Below, piece after piece: positions 1,729 to 39,368 of a stretch of 48,051 nucleotides of DNA. The stretch's first letter is position 1. The number at the start of each line of letters is the position of its first letter. The notes beneath the pieces were generated by a model. That model saw only the letters and a program-made list of their open reading frames with translations. It did not search any database and was not told the origin of the DNA. Source of the DNA: a virus; IMG/VR virus record IMGVR_UViG_3300044833_000307, positions 1 to 48,051 of that record; one strand, 5' to 3'. Made by a program: the position numbers and the translations under genes.

Positions 1729-1805
1729 TGGCGCGCCCGGTGAGAGTCGAACTCACGTTCGCGAATTTAGAGTTCGCAGCTTTGGCCAGACTAAGCTACG
1801 GGCGC
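1729..1805 (-). tRNA. amber-reading (suppressor) tRNA, anticodon CUA
   Basis: A complete 77-nt cloverleaf with encoded CCA. The acceptor GCGCCCG (1805-1799) pairs with CGGGCGC (1739-1733), with discriminator G and CCA at 1731-1729. T8 and A9 are present. The D stem is GCTT/AAGC with a GG-containing loop. The anticodon stem is GCGAA/TTCGC with loop CTCTAAA, so the anticodon is CTA. The variable loop is GAAC, and the T arm is GTGAG, TTCGACT, CTCAC. CUA pairs with UAG. Discriminator G73 argues against tyrosine or leucine charging and is compatible with Gln, Trp, Asp or Asn; the amino acid is not decided here. It lies in the transcription unit of two genes that contain in-frame UAG (2545 and 3444). 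Confidence 0.95.
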
Positions 1806-1910
1806 GCCGAGGGCGGCAAACTGACTTAGGGTTTTCTCGGTTTAAGCCCTGCCGCCGCCGTCGCAGAGCCCCACTGTGGGGTAGCCTAATCGCCGTGCGT
1901 ACCTAGATAG

Positions 1911-1958
1911 CACGATGCCGCCGGGACAGTCCGTCTAGGGGTGTGCCCAGCATCGTGC
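1911..1958 (-). ncRNA. junction-like structured RNA element upstream of the tRNA
   Basis: On the minus strand GCACGATGC (1958-1950) pairs perfectly with GCATCGTGC (1919-1911). Between them are two smaller hairpins (GGG/CCC with loop CACA, and a GGAC/TCC stem), giving a three-way-junction shape. A TATTGT hexamer (1966-1961) lies just ahead, so transcription could begin exactly at the outer stem. Further CCCCA/TGGGG and GGCAGGG/CCC pairings occur between 1810 and 1900. It may be a processing signal, a riboswitch or a ribozyme for the tRNA precursor. I cannot assign a family. Confidence 0.4.
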
Positions 1959-1974
1959 ATACAATACCACGTCT

Positions 1975-2553
1975 TCAGAATTTAGCCACCATCCTTTTCC
2001 CGACCTTGGCCAACTGCTTGAGCTTGATCTTGAAGCCGTCGCTGTCAAGCTGCCCCAGGCGGTTGGCGTTGGAGTGGATTTCCGCGAGGCCCGTGAGAAC
2101 CAAGGACGGGGCCTCTTTGTGCAGCAAAAACGGCTCGATGGCGTCCCCCTTGACCGTGTGGGCCAGCATGTCCATGCGGATGAGTTCGCCGACCTGCCCG
2201 TCCTCCTGGGTCTCGGCGTAACGCATCCACGTGCGGTGGCTGGTTTCCGCGTGACCGGGGAAGTGCTGGCGGTTTTCCACATCCACCTCGCGACAAAAAG
2301 GCTTGCCACAGTCGTGGTACATCTGGTAGGTTCTCAAAATGTCAAGCGGCAACAACCGCTGGGCCAGTCCCGGATGCCCGACCCATTCGGGTAGACGCCA
2401 CTGCAAGTGCGTTGGAGTTCCTTGTGAAACATGTGCGTACAAATCGAGGAACCATGCGTGAACATCCAATCCGTGGTCCTTAACGGACCACGACTCCCAC
2501 TGCCAGCAGGTGCGCATCGCTTCGTCCAGTCTGTTCAGGTTTGCCTATGTCAT
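1975..2553 (-). CDS. HD-domain phosphohydrolase-like protein with in-frame UAG at codon 3
   Basis: The start ATG at 2553 overlaps the TGA of the preceding gene (ATGA) and has GGAGGAAGAAGAA directly upstream, the best ribosome binding site nearby. Codon 3 is TAG (2547-2545), after which the frame stays open to TGA at 1975: MT, amber, ANLNRLDEAMRTCWQWESW onwards, 192 codons. An HD-type metal site is suggested by YHDCGKP (H80, D81), HFPGH (H97, H101) and MDMLAH (D128, H132), the order seen in HD phosphohydrolases. If UAG were only a stop, translation would have to restart at ATG 2517, which has at best a weak GGA. The nearby CUA tRNA makes read-through the simpler reading. The substrate is unknown. 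Confidence 0.7.
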
Positions 2554-2717
2554 TTCTTCTTCCTCCATAAAGTTACAGCCCCGTGTTTTTTGCCGTGGCC
2601 GTATTCCCAATAAAAATACGCCGTCCTGCCGATTTTCAAGACCATGCGCCACGCCGGGAAATTGCTGAGCCCGATGCGCAGCCCGTCTTGCCACATGCAG
2701 TAGGGCGGGAACTTCAC
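2550..2717 (-). CDS. hypothetical protein, 55 aa, GTG start
   Basis: The GTG overlaps the TGA of the upstream 130-aa gene (GTGA). The sequence MKFPPYCMWQDGLRIG is followed by LSNFPAWRMVLKIGRTAYFY and a basic end (LWRKKK). It is rich in aromatic residues and looks like a compact beta fold. Its TGA overlaps the ATG of the HD gene (ATGA). These tight overlaps on both sides support its being real and support the HD start at 2553. Function unknown. Confidence 0.75.
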   Translation of the reverse strand: MKFPPYCMWQDGLRIGLSNFPAWRMVLKIGRTAYFYWEYGHGKKHGAVTLWRKKK

Positions 2718-3106
2718 CGCTTGCCCCAGTTCGGGTATTGCTCCCAGCCGGGGTTGTCGAACAGCGCCTTGAGTTTGTCAGGGCACTTTTCAAGCTTCCT
2801 TTGCCACGGCCGCATCTTGCGCTTGCGGGCGACGAAAAGCTCCGGCGCGTATAGAATGGTGAAGTGGTCCTTGTCCGCCGCGTCCAACGCCGCGCACTCC
2901 TCGAACGCTCTGCGGAACTCGGGGATGTCTTCTTCGGCGATTTCCTCCGCGTCCGCTCCGGGGTAGAAGAAGTCGTTGCAGTTAACGAGGAAGGTGACGG
3001 GGTCGTACCGCGGGGCGTCGCACCTCCACCAGAACGCCTCGCAATGGTCGTGCTCCGAGGCTATGGCCAGCAGTTCAAGCACTGCACCGGGGTTCTTAAT
3101 CGGCAT
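2714..3106 (-). CDS. hypothetical protein, 130 aa
   Basis: Start ATG at 3106 with GGAGGACCGA upstream. The protein has an acidic central part and aromatic clusters (CEAFWWRCDAPRYD, then VTFLVNCNDFFYPGADAEEI) typical of a phage accessory protein family I have seen only as unnamed. It overlaps the end of the PTH2-like gene by 11 bases and shares a GTGA overlap with the next gene, so it is inside the same operon. Confidence 0.8.
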   Translation of the reverse strand: MPIKNPGAVLELLAIASEHDHCEAFWWRCDAPRYDPVTFLVNCNDFFYPGADAEEIAEEDIPEFRRAFEECAALDAADKDHFTILYAPELFVARKRKMRPWQRKLEKCPDKLKALFDNPGWEQYPNWGKR

Positions 3107-3545
3107 TCGGTCCTCCTTGTTGCCAAGTCTTGTACAAGAACATGGCCTTGCGCTGCTTGGAATTCTCGATGGGGACGGTGGCGATGGCGCTCAAACCCAT
3201 GTCGAAGTCCGGCTCGACAAAAGCTTCGTGCGCGATCTTGTAGCGGATCAGTCTCTGGATGGCGGCTTCGAGGGCTGGCTTGTCGGGGAGTCCGATGACG
3301 ACCACGGAAGGAGTTTCGTCCGAAGAGACTTCGGCTTTTCTTGCGAGGCGGGACGCCATCTGGAAGGTGGCGTGATTGGTTTGAACCAACTGCTGCGCGA
3401 GAGGGAGGTCCTGCCGCACGAACACGTAAAAATAAGGGTTTACCTACGCCACGTCTGTGTCTTTCCTGCCAGGATCGGGCAGCACGTCGGTCGTATAAAT
3501 GTCATACTGGCTTTTCTTGGCCGGTCCCATGATGGTGTCTTTCAT
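3096..3545 (-). CDS. PTH2-like peptidyl-tRNA hydrolase-family protein with in-frame UAG at codon 34
   Basis: The ATG at 3545 has GAGGACAAT upstream and begins MKDTIMGPAKKSQYDIYTTD. Codon 34 is TAG (3446-3444). The same frame then continues VNPYFYVFVRQDLPLAQQ and ends in TAA (149 residues). The part after UAG matches the PTH2 fold: first strand and turn YVFVRQDL, helix with QTNHA, and a late FDMGLSAIAT segment like the D-x-G-x-T signature. PTH2 enzymes release peptides from peptidyl-tRNA. Starting after the UAG would require a GTG (3425) with no ribosome binding site and would cut into strand 1. Reading UAG as sense therefore gives the intact fold. It is the first gene behind the promoter at 3559-3587 and is co-directional with the CUA tRNA. 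Confidence 0.75.
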
Positions 3546-3558
3546 ATTGTCCTCAAAC

Positions 3559-3587
3559 AAGATACTCGAAGTCGGGACTTTTGTCAA
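3559..3587 (-). promoter_or_regulatory. sigma70-type promoter with very short leader
   Basis: On the minus strand TTGACA (3587-3582, 6 of 6) is followed after 17 bases by TATCTT (3564-3559, 4 of 6). The predicted start near 3553 leaves a leader of about eight bases (AGGACAAT) before the ATG of the PTH2-like gene, so the ribosome binding site would sit at the very 5' end. It should drive the unit containing both UAG-bearing genes and the suppressor tRNA. Confidence 0.7.
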
Positions 3588-3812
3588 TTACTTCTTGACC
3601 ATCGCCAAAACCTTCGGCGTGCAAGGCACGTAGGTGAGCGTGGTTTGGTACGTTCCATCGTGGTAGGAGTTGGTGGCGGCAAAACAGATGTCCGTGCGCT
3701 CGTCCTGAAAATAGACGATGTTGTTGGACTTAACGGGGTCCGGGGCGGAGTTCATCTGGCAGCCTGCCAGCATCATGGTTGCAACGATGGTAGCAAATAA
3801 TGGACGTTTCAT
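3588..3812 (-). CDS. small lipoprotein, 74 aa
   Basis: Begins MKRPLFATIVATMMLAGCQ: a basic n-region, a hydrophobic core and lipobox LAGC (Cys18), so it should be exported and lipidated by signal peptidase II. The mature part is short and polar, with two further cysteines (ICFAAT and VPCTPK) that could form a disulfide. The ATG at 3812 has AAAGGATAAT upstream. Its TAA abuts the promoter at 3559-3587. It could act as an outer-membrane lysis or superinfection-exclusion protein, but that is only suggested by its type. Confidence 0.8.
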   Translation of the reverse strand: MKRPLFATIVATMMLAGCQMNSAPDPVKSNNIVYFQDERTDICFAATNSYHDGTYQTTLTYVPCTPKVLAMVKK

Positions 3813-3813
3813 A

Positions 3814-3987
3814 TTATCCTTTGGGCTTGGTGGTCGCCAGTTCGTAATGTTTTTTGCACAGCCACACGGCCAATCCGTCGTCCCCCACGGCCCACGGGGC
3901 AGGCTCGTTGCAGCGGTCATATTCGCGAGCCGTCTTGGCGTCGTGGAGATAAAATCCGCCCCGCACGCTGGCCATGCATTTACGCAT
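3814..3987 (-). CDS. small Cys/His protein, 57 aa
   Basis: Reads MRKCMASVRGGFYLHD onwards to WLCKKHYEL. Cysteines at 4, 26 and 44 and His47 (CKKH) are spaced as in a small zinc-binding fold. I chose ATG 3987 rather than the internal ATG 3975 because it keeps Cys4 and because GGGGAG lies upstream. It overlaps the end of the previous gene by eight bases and ends just before the lipoprotein start. Function unknown. Confidence 0.65.
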   Translation of the reverse strand: MRKCMASVRGGFYLHDAKTAREYDRCNEPAPWAVGDDGLAVWLCKKHYELATTKPKG

Positions 3988-4270
3988 CACGGATGATTTC
4001 TCCCCGCAATTCCCCGATGAACATCGAATTCCAAACGACCATGTCCACGCCCACGGGGTCGCCCTTCTTGTCCAGCCTCACGGTGCCTTCCCAGTAAATC
4101 GTTTTGTCGGGATTGAAAGCCTTGAGGCGGTCCCCGGTCTTGAGGGGGTACAGGCCTTCGTACGACCAGCGTTCCTTGGGCGGGGGCGTGATGAAACGCT
4201 CGTCCTGGAGGGCGTACATTCCCCTCTCCACTCCCGTCTCCGTCCAGAAAAACAATGTGCCGCTGATCAT
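3980..4270 (-). CDS. hypothetical protein, 96 aa
   Basis: Begins MISGTLFFWTETGVERG and continues with a beta-rich sequence including KTGDRLKAF and YWEGTVRLDKKGDPVG. I chose ATG 4270 with GGGGGAATCCCCT before it; a longer GTG start at 4321 is possible. An 18-codon frame beginning at ATG 4323 (behind an AGTATTA box at 4328-4334) ends in TGA that overlaps this ATG (ATGA), so it could be a coupled leader peptide. Function unknown. Confidence 0.7.
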   Translation of the reverse strand: MISGTLFFWTETGVERGMYALQDERFITPPPKERWSYEGLYPLKTGDRLKAFNPDKTIYWEGTVRLDKKGDPVGVDMVVWNSMFIGELRGEIIRDA

Positions 4271-4343
4271 AGGGGATTCCCCCGGCAATCCGACCGCAGC
4301 CGTCGCAGGATGGGACACCACATGGACTAATACTGGATTTCGC

Positions 4344-6125
4344 TCAATTCAGACGCCAATAAACTCCGCCAGAAGGAAGCTCGTTGTAGTTGCCGTCGTA
4401 GGACGACAGGAAATGCCCCATGCCGTCGGCCGCCACGAAATCGGTGGCCGCCTCCGTCTCGTCGATCCCCGCTATGTCGATGGCGCGCTTCAACGTCTCG
4501 TCGCCGTAAATGCCTTCGAGGTATTCGATGGGGTCTTTCAAAAGTTTGTCCACCATCTCTTCGACCCATTGGTCGCTCGGCGGCCCGTCTTGTTCGGTCA
4601 GCGACATCTGTGCGTCGCCCTCTTCCTCCTCCCGGATGCCTTCGGGCGTCCATTCCCCGTAGGAGTCCGGGGATTCCCGCACCATCTCCTCCACGTCGGG
4701 GCGCAACGCGTCCCGCAGCCGCTCTTTGTCTATGTAGCTCTCCAGCATGCTTTGGGTGAACATCTCGGGCTCGGATTGCAATTGCTGCTCCACCATGACG
4801 ATGGCTAGCTGCTCGGCGGAGTCGTAGCTCGGGGCCACCACGTATTCCTTGTCCCCGAAGCTGACGGTGGCGAAGTTCGAGGCCTCCTTCCAGTTCCACA
4901 TGCCGGGGGCGACTTCCAGCCCATGCGCGCCCAGGTAATCCTCCTTCTTGAGGAACTCCATGACCGCCGTCACGGTCTCGGGGTCGTCGATGGCGGCCTC
5001 CACTTCCGTGCGGACGCCCAGTTCCTCGTTCTCGCTTGGCTCCGGCTCGGGTTCCGGGGCCTTGTTTTCGGGGACGGGGTCGGTGGCCGGGTGGGTGCGT
5101 TCGAGATTCGGGTCCGGCGGGTCGCCGGGTGCCGCGGTCTTGCTGGCGGTCACGGGCGGAGCGCCGAGCAAATCATTGATGGTGTTTACGCCCCCGCCCC
5201 CTTTGATGACCAGCTTCAAACCCTCCGGGGGAGGGAACTTCTCGATGAATTGCTTGAGGCGTTCGTCCGTGTGGCGGTTCGACCTGTATTTGATGTCTAT
5301 GCTGCCCGCCCCATCGGGGTCGAAATAAATCGCGCCCTGCTGGAAGGCCGTTTCCGTGTCGGCGATCTCCGGGGTGGCGTTGGAGTTCGGTTGCAGCCAG
5401 CCGCCGTAGCGCCACAGCATCTCGGGGTTGAAGCCGTGGGCGGCGGTGTGCGCGGAGGCGGCCATTTGATCCAAGTATAATTTTTCCATTTCCTCTCCCT
5501 CCGACGCCATCAGGGGGTCGGTTTTGCGGCGGTAGCGGCTTAGCCCGAGGTTTTCCTTGGGCGCTCCATCGATCCTGCGGCGGTTTCCCGGTTCGAACGC
5601 TTGCTGCATGTCCATCCCATCGACGCCGAGGTTTTCCACCCGCACGGCGTCCTCGAAGGGGCAGGCTTCCTCCCACAACTCGGGCTTGTTCTCCAAGTCG
5701 GGGACCTTGCTCCAGAACTCGTGGCCCTCGGGGACATCCGGGGCGACGACGAGGTACTTGTGGACTTTGGCGGCGATCTTTGAGGAAGCTTCACGGCCCC
5801 CGGCGGCCGAAGGGGTCAAATACCAACGCATCTGCTTCTGCTTGATGAAACCCTTCTCCTTGAGGCGGGTGACGGCGGCCCATGAATTGGTGCTGTACTT
5901 CGCGCCAGCAAACAGGGTTTTCTCGATTTCGCCCGTGGTCATCGGGCGCTGGCGGAGGGCTTGGAGAATCTTGTCTTCGTCGGGGTCGCCAGTGGTCGTG
6001 AGGAGCATGGATGTCTTTTCGTGCGCCGCCACCGCCGCCAGGGCGGCTTTGTTGACTCTGGCGGCGTTGCAGCGAATCTCGAACTTGTCAGCGGCGGTGA
6101 GGGCGTCTTTGCGGATGTCGTCCAT
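4344..6125 (-). CDS. large hypothetical protein with N-terminal winged-helix-like region, 593 aa
   Basis: The ATG at 6125 has GGAGCCCACC upstream. Residues about 50-115 (DKILQALRQRPMTTGEIEK, then AVTRLKEKGFIKQ and a basic hairpin ending WYLTP) have the order of a winged helix-turn-helix. A middle domain has repeated aromatic/acidic segments. A proline- and glutamate-rich linker (about 335-380) leads to a strongly acidic C-terminal half of about 200 residues with helices. The shape suggests a DNA-binding or host-takeover protein; no enzyme motif is visible. It lies between the tmRNA terminator and the small gene at 3980. Confidence 0.7.
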   Translation of the reverse strand: MDDIRKDALTAADKFEIRCNAARVNKAALAAVAAHEKTSMLLTTTGDPDEDKILQALRQRPMTTGEIEKTLFAGAKYSTNSWAAVTRLKEKGFIKQKQMRWYLTPSAAGGREASSKIAAKVHKYLVVAPDVPEGHEFWSKVPDLENKPELWEEACPFEDAVRVENLGVDGMDMQQAFEPGNRRRIDGAPKENLGLSRYRRKTDPLMASEGEEMEKLYLDQMAASAHTAAHGFNPEMLWRYGGWLQPNSNATPEIADTETAFQQGAIYFDPDGAGSIDIKYRSNRHTDERLKQFIEKFPPPEGLKLVIKGGGGVNTINDLLGAPPVTASKTAAPGDPPDPNLERTHPATDPVPENKAPEPEPEPSENEELGVRTEVEAAIDDPETVTAVMEFLKKEDYLGAHGLEVAPGMWNWKEASNFATVSFGDKEYVVAPSYDSAEQLAIVMVEQQLQSEPEMFTQSMLESYIDKERLRDALRPDVEEMVRESPDSYGEWTPEGIREEEEGDAQMSLTEQDGPPSDQWVEEMVDKLLKDPIEYLEGIYGDETLKRAIDIAGIDETEAATDFVAADGMGHFLSSYDGNYNELPSGGVYWRLN

Positions 6126-6164
6126 GGTGGGCTCCTACCATAAGGTTCTGATAGACTGTCCCCG

Positions 6165-6207
6165 AAAACAAAAACGCCCGCGGTCAAAGAATCTTGAGGG
6201 CGGGCGT
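6165..6207 (-). terminator. Rho-independent terminator of the tmRNA
   Basis: On the minus strand ACGCCCGC (6207-6200) pairs with GCGGGCGT (6181-6174) around an 18-base loop, followed by TTTTGTTTT. It directly follows the tmRNA coding piece. Confidence 0.85.
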
Positions 6208-6475
6208 CTTGCCGTGTTGAGGAACTCAGGCACGGCCTGAGGCTACCTTAAGCGGCAGCGGCCATTGCAAGAGGAGCAGTGGCGTTTATTGGTTTTGTTC
6301 ATTTACGGGAGTTTACTCCCCGGCCCGTGTGCATCCCACGCTTGCAGTCCGTCGAAACCAATTCGGCCCCGCAGAAGTGATACGGGGTAAATGGTGGAGC
6401 CGGGGGTAATCGAAACCCCGTCCGAAAAGCCGCTTAGGTGCCGTGACCTTCCTTGCGGAAGGGAGTTACGAGCGT
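6174..6475 (-). ncRNA. ssrA: circularly permuted (two-piece) tmRNA
   Basis: In transcription order the acceptor piece comes first. It has a CCTTCC/GGAAGG hairpin with a GCAA loop, TTTTCGGACGGGG, T-loop TTCGATT, then CGGCTCC, A, CCA ending at 6392. A 21-nt intervening segment (6391-6371) follows. The coding piece starts at 6370 with GGGGCCG and GGTTTCGACGG, the classic tmRNA 5' end. GGGGCCG pairs with CGGCTCC including the usual G-U at position 3. A tag frame, probably GCC (6283) to TAA (6248), reads ATAPLAMAAAA and ends in the small hydrophobic residues expected of a protease tag. After it comes an H-type pseudoknot (6241-6212: CTCAGG, loop CCGTG, CCTGAG, then CACGG). A terminator closes it. 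This order is the permuted form. The resume codon is inferred. Confidence 0.93.
6248..6283 (-). other. tmRNA tag-peptide reading frame
   Basis: Inside the tmRNA coding piece the frame ending at TAA 6250-6248 reads back as A-A-A-A-M-A-L-P-A-T-A. The likely resume codon is GCC after AATAAAC. An upstream TGA in this frame limits the tag to at most 17 codons. The alanine-rich hydrophobic end fits a ClpXP-type degradation signal. Confidence 0.75.
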
Positions 6476-6481
6476 ACCTGT

Positions 6482-6510
6482 ATAATACTTCAAAAGACTG
6501 GATTTTGCAA
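6482..6510 (-). promoter_or_regulatory. sigma70-type promoter of the tmRNA
   Basis: TTGCAA (6510-6505, 4 of 6) is followed after 17 bases by TATTAT (6487-6482, 5 of 6) on the minus strand. The expected start is near 6475, just before the acceptor piece. The -35 box begins right after the stop of the 374-aa gene. Confidence 0.75.
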
Positions 6511-37023: not shown

Positions 37024-39368
37024 TAGGCGTTCTCCTCGCCGGGCGCGGGGATTTGCCCGCCTTGGTTGTTCACGATGTCCGGGGCCTCGGTCGTGTCGCG
37101 CACGAGCGACATGCTGACCTTCTTTTGCTGCGTGGAGATGTCGTCGGTCTTCGTGACGTGCAGCCGTGTGGCGCACTCGGTGATCCAGTCGCCCGTGCAG
37201 TGGTATTGCAGGTGCCCCATGTGGGTGATGTCTATGTCACCTTGGATTTCAAGCCGCAAGGCCTTGCCTTGCTTGTTGGGCTTGATCGTGATCTCGCAGC
37301 CCCCGAACAGGCTGGCCGTGACGGAGCGCCCCTGCGCGTCCGCGCCGACCGTCGCGACGAGGCCGCCGTCCGTGTCGATGAGGATCGACTGCTGGGAGAC
37401 GGGGTTGCTGCCGACGCGGATGAGCATGTCGCTGGTGGAGTGCAGGTCGAGGGACAGCCCGTGCTGGTCCATGGGCGAGTTGCCGAGCCCTGCTCCAGGC
37501 ACGGGGGTGCCGCTCCACGAAGCGATGTTGTAGGGCGGAAAATTGAGAGTCGGCTGCCCTGCGAGAGCAAGGTCGTGAAAAGCGTAGTTGCTGTCGCCAG
37601 CGCCGTAATTAGGACGGCCGGGCGAGTGAGAGTCAACGCGGTTCGGGTCGCCCACCGCATAAGGAATCTTGCCCTGCCCGTCTTGGTATCCATTTTTGAG
37701 GTGCCGTCGCTTGGCAGCAGGATTGCGACCGCCGAGGCGAACAACAGCAGCGCCGTCGAGGGCGGCACGGAGTGAGACATTTTCGGCTCCTATTTTGTTG
37801 TAGCCCTGCGCGTTCACCCCGGAATCGCCGGGGCTCAACTTCACATGGCTGCCGTCCCAGTATTGAAGTTGCCGCTTGTCGGAGGCGTCCCCCTTCTCGC
37901 GGCTCTGGGTGTGCACCGTGCGGCGGGCGTTCGGCAAAGAGGTGTCGTCCGCGCCCAAGCGGATCACTGCTTGGCCCAGCGCCTGGATGTCGAGGGCTTC
38001 TTCTTCGTCCCGGTTCTTGCCCACCACCAGCTTGGCGGAGCCCACCAGATGGGCCTCCAAGGAACGCCCCGCGCCGTGCGCGTTTTCATAAGCGCCGTCG
38101 CCTATCCCCACGTTTTCCTTGGGCAGCGTGGAGCCGATTTCCAGGCTGGTGAAGCCTTCCTTCGTCACGTCCAGCCGGGTGGTGTTGTACTCGTAGGGGA
38201 AGCGGATGCTCATGCACGAAGCGGCGAGGCGGGCCTCCACGTGGTCGGCGGATTCCGTGACGGGCATGTGGCCGGAATCCACGTCGGCCCCGAAGCGCGA
38301 GTAAAACAACGCGGGCTTGAGGACTTGCCCGTACGTGCTCTTGTCGAAAATGTTGTGGCCCACCAGCGTGCCTTGGGACTTTTCAAGGATGTAGCCACGG
38401 CGGGCGGGCGTCGCGCCTTCGGCGAGCGCCGGGCCGACGGGCTTGGTCTTGGTGTTGTACGGGTGGTCCCATTGCTGCGAAGCCATGAATGTCTGGCTGT
38501 CGCTCGCCACCTGCCCGCTGGGGGACGTGACCGTGGTGCGGGTCCACGGGCTGGCCACCGTGCCGAGGATCGCATCCAGCAGGCTCGTCTGGATGGATTC
38601 GATGGGCGGGACGTAGTCGAGGGCGAACTCCTGCACCAGTTCCGTGGCCTCGGAGAACGGGATCACGTCCGGCTTGCCGTCCACATAACGATCCGATGGC
38701 TGGGAGCCGGGCTGCAAATACGAAACGAATTCCTGCGTCCCGTCCGGCAGGGTGACGCCGGGTATGTTGGGGGCGTTGGGGCGGTTCACCGGGCCGTGGT
38801 AGCTCACCCCCGCGCCCGTGAGGCTGACGTTGCGCCCCGTGACGTGCGTGCGGGTGCGGCGATCCGCGTCCAGCTTGTCGCGGCTGAAGTCCGAGCCCAG
38901 GCGGTCCCAGTCCTGGTCGATCTTTTCCGAGTACCCCCCGGTGTAGCTGGAGGTGCGCTGCCCCGGATAGGCTTTGCGGTACGTGCCGCGCAGGCGATCC
39001 GACCAGCCCTGCATCTCCGAGCCCTCCACGCCCCGCTGGGCCACGGCGTCGATGTTGTTGATCTGGTCGCTGTTGATCCAGCTAATGATGATTACTTGGC
39101 TGAAGCCCAGGCTGTAGTTGATGTGCATCGCCACGCAGGACGAGAATTGCTCCGGCATGTTGATGTCGATGCCCGTGGATGAGGAGGTGTTCGAAGGCCA
39201 CTGGCGGATGTCCGTGTAGACGCCCTTGGTGCCCACGTCCTCGATGGCGAGGACGTGCCGCTCGTAATCGACCGTGAGCACGCGCCCGATGAAGGGCGCG
39301 AACTTGAGGGCGTCCCGCTCGCGGGCGAGCGGCCCCGGATGGTAAAGCTGCGTGTTGTCGCTAACCAT
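37023..39368 (-). CDS. baseplate central spike / gp5-VgrG-like protein, 781 aa
   Basis: Begins MVSDNTQLYHPGPLARERDA. Residues about 25-60 (FIGRVLTVDYERHVLAIEDV) look like the OB-fold of gp5/VgrG-type hub-spike proteins. The C-terminal third has the spike's beta rungs: SILIDTDGGLVATVGADAQG, RSVTASLFGGCEITIKPNKQ, GKALRLEIQGDIDITHMG. These proteins sit at the tip of the tail tube and pierce the cell envelope. The start overlaps the last codons of the hub gene, whose stop is TAG (ATGGTTAG). Confidence 0.75.
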   Translation of the reverse strand: MVSDNTQLYHPGPLARERDALKFAPFIGRVLTVDYERHVLAIEDVGTKGVYTDIRQWPSNTSSSTGIDINMPEQFSSCVAMHINYSLGFSQVIIISWINSDQINNIDAVAQRGVEGSEMQGWSDRLRGTYRKAYPGQRTSSYTGGYSEKIDQDWDRLGSDFSRDKLDADRRTRTHVTGRNVSLTGAGVSYHGPVNRPNAPNIPGVTLPDGTQEFVSYLQPGSQPSDRYVDGKPDVIPFSEATELVQEFALDYVPPIESIQTSLLDAILGTVASPWTRTTVTSPSGQVASDSQTFMASQQWDHPYNTKTKPVGPALAEGATPARRGYILEKSQGTLVGHNIFDKSTYGQVLKPALFYSRFGADVDSGHMPVTESADHVEARLAASCMSIRFPYEYNTTRLDVTKEGFTSLEIGSTLPKENVGIGDGAYENAHGAGRSLEAHLVGSAKLVVGKNRDEEEALDIQALGQAVIRLGADDTSLPNARRTVHTQSREKGDASDKRQLQYWDGSHVKLSPGDSGVNAQGYNKIGAENVSLRAALDGAAVVRLGGRNPAAKRRHLKNGYQDGQGKIPYAVGDPNRVDSHSPGRPNYGAGDSNYAFHDLALAGQPTLNFPPYNIASWSGTPVPGAGLGNSPMDQHGLSLDLHSTSDMLIRVGSNPVSQQSILIDTDGGLVATVGADAQGRSVTASLFGGCEITIKPNKQGKALRLEIQGDIDITHMGHLQYHCTGDWITECATRLHVTKTDDISTQQKKVSMSLVRDTTEAPDIVNNQGGQIPAPGEENA

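Follow-up and report, generated by a model that had tools for sequence, protein, structure and literature searches.

In prfB, the gene for release factor 2 (RF2), control of expression relies on a UGA codon and a +1 frameshift, sensed through RF2. The early in-frame stop in this gene senses the state of termination and controls the production of a translation factor (PMC13245932). In bacteriophages that use genetic code 15, in-frame stop codons have been proposed to prevent the premature production of late proteins (PMC10746230), and in synthetic circuits the combination of a suppressor tRNA with an amber-bearing gene acts as a coherent feed-forward loop and eliminates leaky expression (PMC7969014). 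Large phages with suppressor tRNAs have also been searched for the genes that these tRNAs might serve. The authors of the XacN1 genome tested 18 amber-ending genes and found no suppressor-tRNA target among them (PMC5852040), and those of the Summit genome likewise sought the genes served by its suppressor tRNA and found none (PMC9022506). The open-access literature that we searched contains no report of an amber codon in PTH2; subscription papers lay mostly outside this search, and an earlier description is possible.

The window, by which we mean the whole 48,051-base stretch analyzed here (IMG/VR virus record IMGVR_UViG_3300044833_000307, positions 1–48,051), encodes its structural genes on the minus strand. 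A first-pass annotation had placed a PTH2-like gene, an amber-suppressor tRNA and a tmRNA close together in it, and ARAGORN, Rfam and homology searches agree that all three elements are real and lie on the minus strand. The tRNA (1729–1805), approximately 170 bp 3' of an HD-domain-like gene, has the anticodon CUA, G73 and an encoded CCA, and is recognized both by ARAGORN (anticodon CTA) and by the Rfam tRNA model (63 bits); by analogy with known E. coli suppressors, it would suit glutamine. The permuted tmRNA (6157–6484), called by ARAGORN and by Rfam (RF04321, 93.8 bits against a cut-off of 47), encodes the tag ATAPLAMAAAA at about 6248–6283 and bears in its acceptor stem, as read by eye, the alanine identity pair G3.U70. 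The PTH2-like gene had been listed as an open reading frame at 3096–3425; an alignment of homologues (eight, then 18), the start and Shine-Dalgarno context, and PF01981 matches in family members place its true start upstream, at the GTG in 3452–3450. The revised gene (3096–3452) reads GTG-GCG-TAG and then the PTH2 domain, with an in-frame amber as codon 3 (3444–3446, next base G), a Shine-Dalgarno-like AGGAAAG 8 nt 5' of the GTG (3461–3467, hand-counted), and a domain that is open from 3443 to the stop with no further interruption. A 130-aa open reading frame without a Pfam match (2714–3106) overlaps its end and is followed by one of 55 aa (2550–2717), whose TGA stop shares bases with the start codon (ATG) of the HD-domain-like gene (phrog_14850; 1975–2553), all on the minus strand. 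This gene, whose ATG aligns with the starts of its homologues, reads ATG-ACA-TAG and then the HD domain, and therefore also has an in-frame amber as codon 3 (2545–2547, next base G), preceded by a Shine-Dalgarno-like GGAGGA (2561–2566, hand-counted). The grouping of tRNA, PTH2 and tmRNA is beyond chance: the viral contig L002, whose PTH2 is 56% identical to that of the window, keeps the tmRNA, PTH2 and two CTA tRNAs in the window's order on one strand over a span of about 4 kb, and many unrelated phages likewise have CTA tRNAs close to PTH2.

A tblastn search with the window PTH2 returned matches in 29 phage records, nearly all of them large. The window protein itself has no Pfam match and is placed in the family by homology, with PF01981 being matched by 12 of the 18 family members in the corresponding alignment (E up to 0.1; best E 1.1e-6). 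Like PTH2 hydrolases, several phage members score at or above the Pfam cut-off of 23 bits (LR756500, 30.8; LR756511, 28.0; RaK2, 27.2; XacN1, 25.3), but the phage proteins are short and divergent, share a conserved EPDxD.G(L/F)(T/S) motif and are often paired with or fused to an HD domain, and are best described as predicted enzymes. The lysine of what we take to be the canonical PTH2 motif has apparently been replaced in them. A second PTH2 gene lies a few kb from the amber-bearing one in Pectobacterium phage CBB and its relatives (CBB_392; L006:1839-2267), and its annotation gives CBB_392 a normal start and a Pfam match to PTH2.

None of the eight PTH2 homologues in the first alignment has an ordinary start. 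The domain is preceded, in frame, by a start codon, one or two further codons and TAG, as in L002 (ATG-CAA-TAG), Pectobacterium phage CBB (ATG-GCA-CAA-TAG), Acinetobacter phage ME3 (ATG-ACT-TAG), Salmonella phage Arash (ATG-CTG-TAG) and the HD-PTH2 fusion of XacN1 (ATG-AAG-TAG), and in most of these genes a Shine-Dalgarno-type AGGA or GAGG motif lies 5–9 bases before the start. The survey was extended to phage records and 22 viral contigs, some of which are copies of CBB, GAP32, BF, ME3 or G002, and its divergent, mostly giant phages were sorted by our own grouping into 19 lineages: the window, L002, G002, the Mimas/Eneladus phages, L200, L201, L202, L205-207, ME3, Arash/L203/L204, L208-210, XacN1, RAS14/CM1, LR756511, LR756500, LR756501, Tenacibaculum phage pT24, LR756504 and LR745206. 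In all 19, PTH2 or its HD fusion is interrupted in frame at codon 3 or 4, and the stop is TAG every time, with no instance of TAA or TGA; were the three stops equally likely, such uniformity would arise by chance with a probability of about (1/3)^19. The L202 gene is less clear, with GTG-CGT-TAG followed by ATG, and the LR756501 gene has a second in-frame TAG in a neighborhood that looks unrecoded and may be a special case. In database annotations, PTH2 is left out in the SNUABM phages, SNUABM_47 among them, and truncated in CBB, GAP32 and XbC2, while the XacN1 HD-PTH2 gene has been begun at an ATG after the amber, which is why the likely suppressor target in that genome was missed.

A purine 3' of UAG favors amber suppression, as established in classical work in E. 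coli, and all 20 genes examined have A or G right after the early TAG, against 48% of TAG terminators in six of these genomes (Fisher p 1.2e-5). For the 20 codons that follow the PTH2 TAG, pN/pS is 0.094 across eight Mimas/Eneladus phages; a value for the Arash group was set aside, its alignment rows being offset by one codon. Most PTH2 members offer no ATG, GTG or TTG from the TAG up to the first beta strand. Together these observations argue that the stretch after the TAG is translated as part of PTH2.

PTH2 usually has the HD-domain-like protein (phrog_14850) encoded after it or fused to it, and the amber is often found in this partner as well. It is codon 3 in the window, and L200 and LR745206 have it as codon 4; in the nine aligned Mimas/Eneladus genes it is invariably codon 47, and in L201, L202 and L205-207 it falls in a loop near that site. 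Constraint is equal on both sides of the Mimas/Eneladus site (pN/pS 0.116 before the TAG, 0.168/0.113 after it). The protein contains the motif HD-x-GKP followed by FPxHAxxS, and its profile matches are weak (PF01966, E 0.008–0.016, in few members; TIGR00277 HDIG, E 0.0038–0.036). It resembles the HD region of CCA-adding enzymes and poly(A) polymerases in this motif and in its best matches among PDB-set profiles, which are poly(A) polymerase HD regions at a weak E of about 0.05, but differs from them in lacking an attached nucleotidyltransferase domain; kinship with the HD domain of CCA-adding enzymes is suggestive only. Fusions occur in both orders, HD-PTH2 and PTH2-HD (L008:7443-8291, L014:9455-10300, L214:9600-10552), an arrangement that suggests that the two proteins act together. 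A search of the viral contigs with the HD-PTH2 fusion alignment gave no match.

The early amber is accompanied by a tRNA able to read it. Among the 19 TAG-plus lineages, 17 yielded a CUA tRNA, mostly within 10 kb of PTH2, whereas none of five TAG-minus lineages did (Fisher p 0.0005, with shared ancestry ignored). In complete genomes, ARAGORN calls one CUA tRNA each for CBB, SNUABM_47, ME3 (which has five tRNAs), RAS14 and Arash and two for G002, and it calls two in the first 80 kb of XacN1; in six loci (among L200-L202, L205-L207 and ME3) the CUA tRNA lies 134–737 bp upstream of PTH2. The TAG-minus genomes of RaK2, Hallingskeid, Mx1 and LR745208 have none over their whole length, nor is there one among the 20 tRNAs in the 20-kb locus of L199, where both PTH2 and HD are TAG-minus. 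No clear CUA tRNA was seen among the tRNAs read in the TAG-plus LR745206 and LR756504; a few of the latter's tRNAs were left unread, and one is a candidate CUA tRNA with an atypical 8-nt loop. L195 has none within 10 kb. A plain DNA pattern was discarded as a detector of CUA tRNAs, since the control matched as many as the real one. Several of these phages also encode tRNAs with a TTA anticodon, which read UAA (L004:10647-10724, RAS14 302428-302502, L018:7629-7705 and L204), and in LR745208 such a tRNA lies just after the amber-less PTH2. L002 carries, directly after its two CTA tRNAs, a gene resembling the core of alanyl-tRNA synthetase (L002:10770-11624; PF01411, E 1.3e-24); because the alanine identity pair was not seen, on reading by eye, in the CUA tRNAs of the window or L002, we do not claim this gene as the charger of the CUA tRNA, and it is possibly linked to the charging of the tmRNA or of another tRNA.

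The mycobacteriophages form a separate case. In IkeLoa, Myrna and Shrimp (L021, L215, L217) a conserved (A/G)TG-TAG-GTG-AC precedes PTH2, and a CTA tRNA lies no more than about 500 bases away. The (A/G)TG-TAG-GTG of IkeLoa and Myrna was not counted as a gated PTH2, the GTG behind the TAG being the start that suits the distance from the Shine-Dalgarno motif. In mycophages of two genera the CUA tRNA lies near a PTH2 that is probably begun after the TAG, and the association there is not one-to-one.

The joint presence and absence of TAG and tRNA would also be expected if the early amber had been tolerated once a suppressor tRNA was available and had then made that tRNA indispensable, in a selfish or neutral lock-in without regulatory benefit. 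Ambers fixed in this manner should, however, be scattered over many genes and positions, whereas across 19 lineages they recur at matching codons in just one or two genes, and the base that follows them favors read-through. We consider this explanation improbable, and regard PTH2, often together with HD, as very probably a gene pair gated by a suppressor tRNA, in which the early UAG is read by the phage tRNA.

In the complete genomes tested, TAG is not in general use as a sense codon. Treating TAG as a sense codon (code 15) hardly changes the coding coverage of any complete genome tested, and their genes end in TAG; the comparison gives 0.88 versus 0.91 for the window, in which five of 25 long open reading frames end in TAG, and 0.73 versus 0.75 for CBB, with similar figures for the others. 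General recoding of TAG was therefore rejected, the gain in coverage being almost nil and TAG serving as a terminator. A scan for stop codons spanned by conserved protein was restricted to distant genome pairs, excluding the pair of CBB and SNUABM_47, which are so close that wrong frames are also conserved, and a site was relied on only if many genomes supported it. PTH2 and HD emerged as the TAG sites with the broadest genome support, while the corresponding scans for TAA and TGA returned a background made up mostly of neighboring genes whose ATG follows the stop. Furthermore, TAG terminates only 16 of 665 open reading frames in CBB and SNUABM_47, against 49 of 674 in RaK2 and Hallingskeid (p 3.4e-5). 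TAG terminators are hence about three times rarer in the two genomes with the CUA tRNA than in their two relatives without it. The comparison involves just four genomes; a deficit of this kind is what suppression of UAG during infection would produce.

The first-pass annotation had further predicted that CUA tRNA, tmRNA and PTH2 would co-occur in related phages. This holds strongly for PTH2 and the CUA tRNA but only in part for the tmRNA, which is present in some relatives only: it occurs in the window, L002, G002, XacN1, LR756511, LR756500 and the mycophage IkeLoa, and ARAGORN finds none in the complete TAG-plus genomes of CBB, SNUABM_47, ME3, RAS14 and Arash. The tmRNA is an optional companion of the PTH2/CUA tRNA set. 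The text of the XacN1 paper makes no mention of a tmRNA (PMC5852040). The XacN1 tmRNA is permuted (L117:17201-17621; record 37201-37621), has the tag ANANTFDYALAA and a G3.U70 pair, and is preceded, at a distance of about 1 kb, by two CTA tRNAs. In the window and in L002 the tmRNA tags are short and end in AAAA, not in the usual LAA or VAA.

This distribution bears on the rescue module originally proposed, in which suppression of normal UAG stops would generate stalled complexes to be cleared by PTH2 and the tmRNA, the in-frame TAGs being incidental. Although all three elements are grouped in the window, L002 and IkeLoa, and CUA tRNAs and the tmRNA in XacN1, the five complete TAG-plus genomes that lack a tmRNA by ARAGORN do not fit it, and it leaves the TAG at codon 3–4 of PTH2 in 19 lineages unexplained; we judge it quite unlikely. 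Since PTH2, and often HD too, is itself interrupted by an early UAG, the gene appears to be something on which the suppressor tRNA acts, and not a mere bystander in the clean-up; the original proposal is thus supported in part, but through a different link. Least credible of all, and very improbable, is that AUG-X-UAG acts as a leader open reading frame of two or three codons that tunes PTH2 by peptidyl-tRNA drop-off or re-initiation, with PTH2 begun at a non-standard codon after the TAG: the leader has the length typical of minigenes that release peptidyl-tRNA, for which the bar minigenes of lambda are the comparison, and as this is the substrate of peptidyl-tRNA hydrolase the feedback would be neat, but the leader shares the frame of the domain in every case, its stop is always UAG, most members lack any standard start up to the first beta strand while constraint begins right after the TAG, and neither the link to the CUA tRNA nor the amber in mid-HD is accounted for.

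In the suppressor-gated reading, the phage encodes an amber-suppressor tRNA together with a PTH2 gene, and often an HD gene, interrupted by UAG, which stands at codon 3–4 in PTH2 and, in HD, at codon 3, codon 4 or a position from about 47 onward. Until the tRNA is charged, ribosomes would get no further than two or three codons, or the early part of HD, and PTH2 would not be produced. Once transcribed, processed and charged, the tRNA would compete with release factor 1 and allow translation to continue, so that an AND gate would arise from two inputs, gene transcription and tRNA availability, in a natural coherent feed-forward loop. The start-proximal TAG with its purine context, the coding constraint beyond it and the association with the CUA tRNA are properties of the sequences themselves, and from them we infer that read-through takes place during infection and depends on the phage tRNA. 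With less certainty, PTH2 and HD, which are presumably tRNA-maintenance enzymes, would be made in proportion to suppression activity, and might recycle the peptidyl-tRNAs that arise from suppression-related stalling and drop-off, or keep suppression in check. PTH2 frees tRNA from peptides, and both early UAG codons and suppression promote unfinished peptidyl-tRNA, so that a link between PTH2 and suppression would either supply the hydrolase at the time of need or hold suppression back. Where present, the tmRNA may rescue non-stop ribosomes as an optional helper.

We think it likely that, across large tailed phages of varied hosts, a dedicated amber-suppressor tRNA serves as the key to a PTH2-HD operon within a standard-code genome, which would explain the orphan suppressor tRNAs reported from several jumbo phages and couple the maintenance of peptidyl-tRNA and tRNA to suppression. 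If confirmed, orphan suppressor tRNAs would gain a defined target, a natural form of stop-codon gating by a dedicated tRNA would be added to those already known, and gene callers would be seen to miss or split amber-gated PTH2 and HD genes systematically.

The closest described systems each share part of this arrangement. As in the TAG-recoded code-15 phages, such as the crAss-like and Lak phages, a phage CUA tRNA would read in-frame UAG codons, but in those phages TAGs are found in many genes, whereas here the complete genomes tested have the standard code and the conserved, broadly supported TAGs are confined to PTH2 and HD. As in prfB, an early in-frame stop lies in a translation-related gene, yet the phage PTH2 keeps its frame and the UAG would be read by a dedicated phage tRNA. 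In the synthetic leak dampener the loop of suppressor tRNA and amber gene was engineered, whereas the phage version would be a natural one, acting on PTH2-HD.
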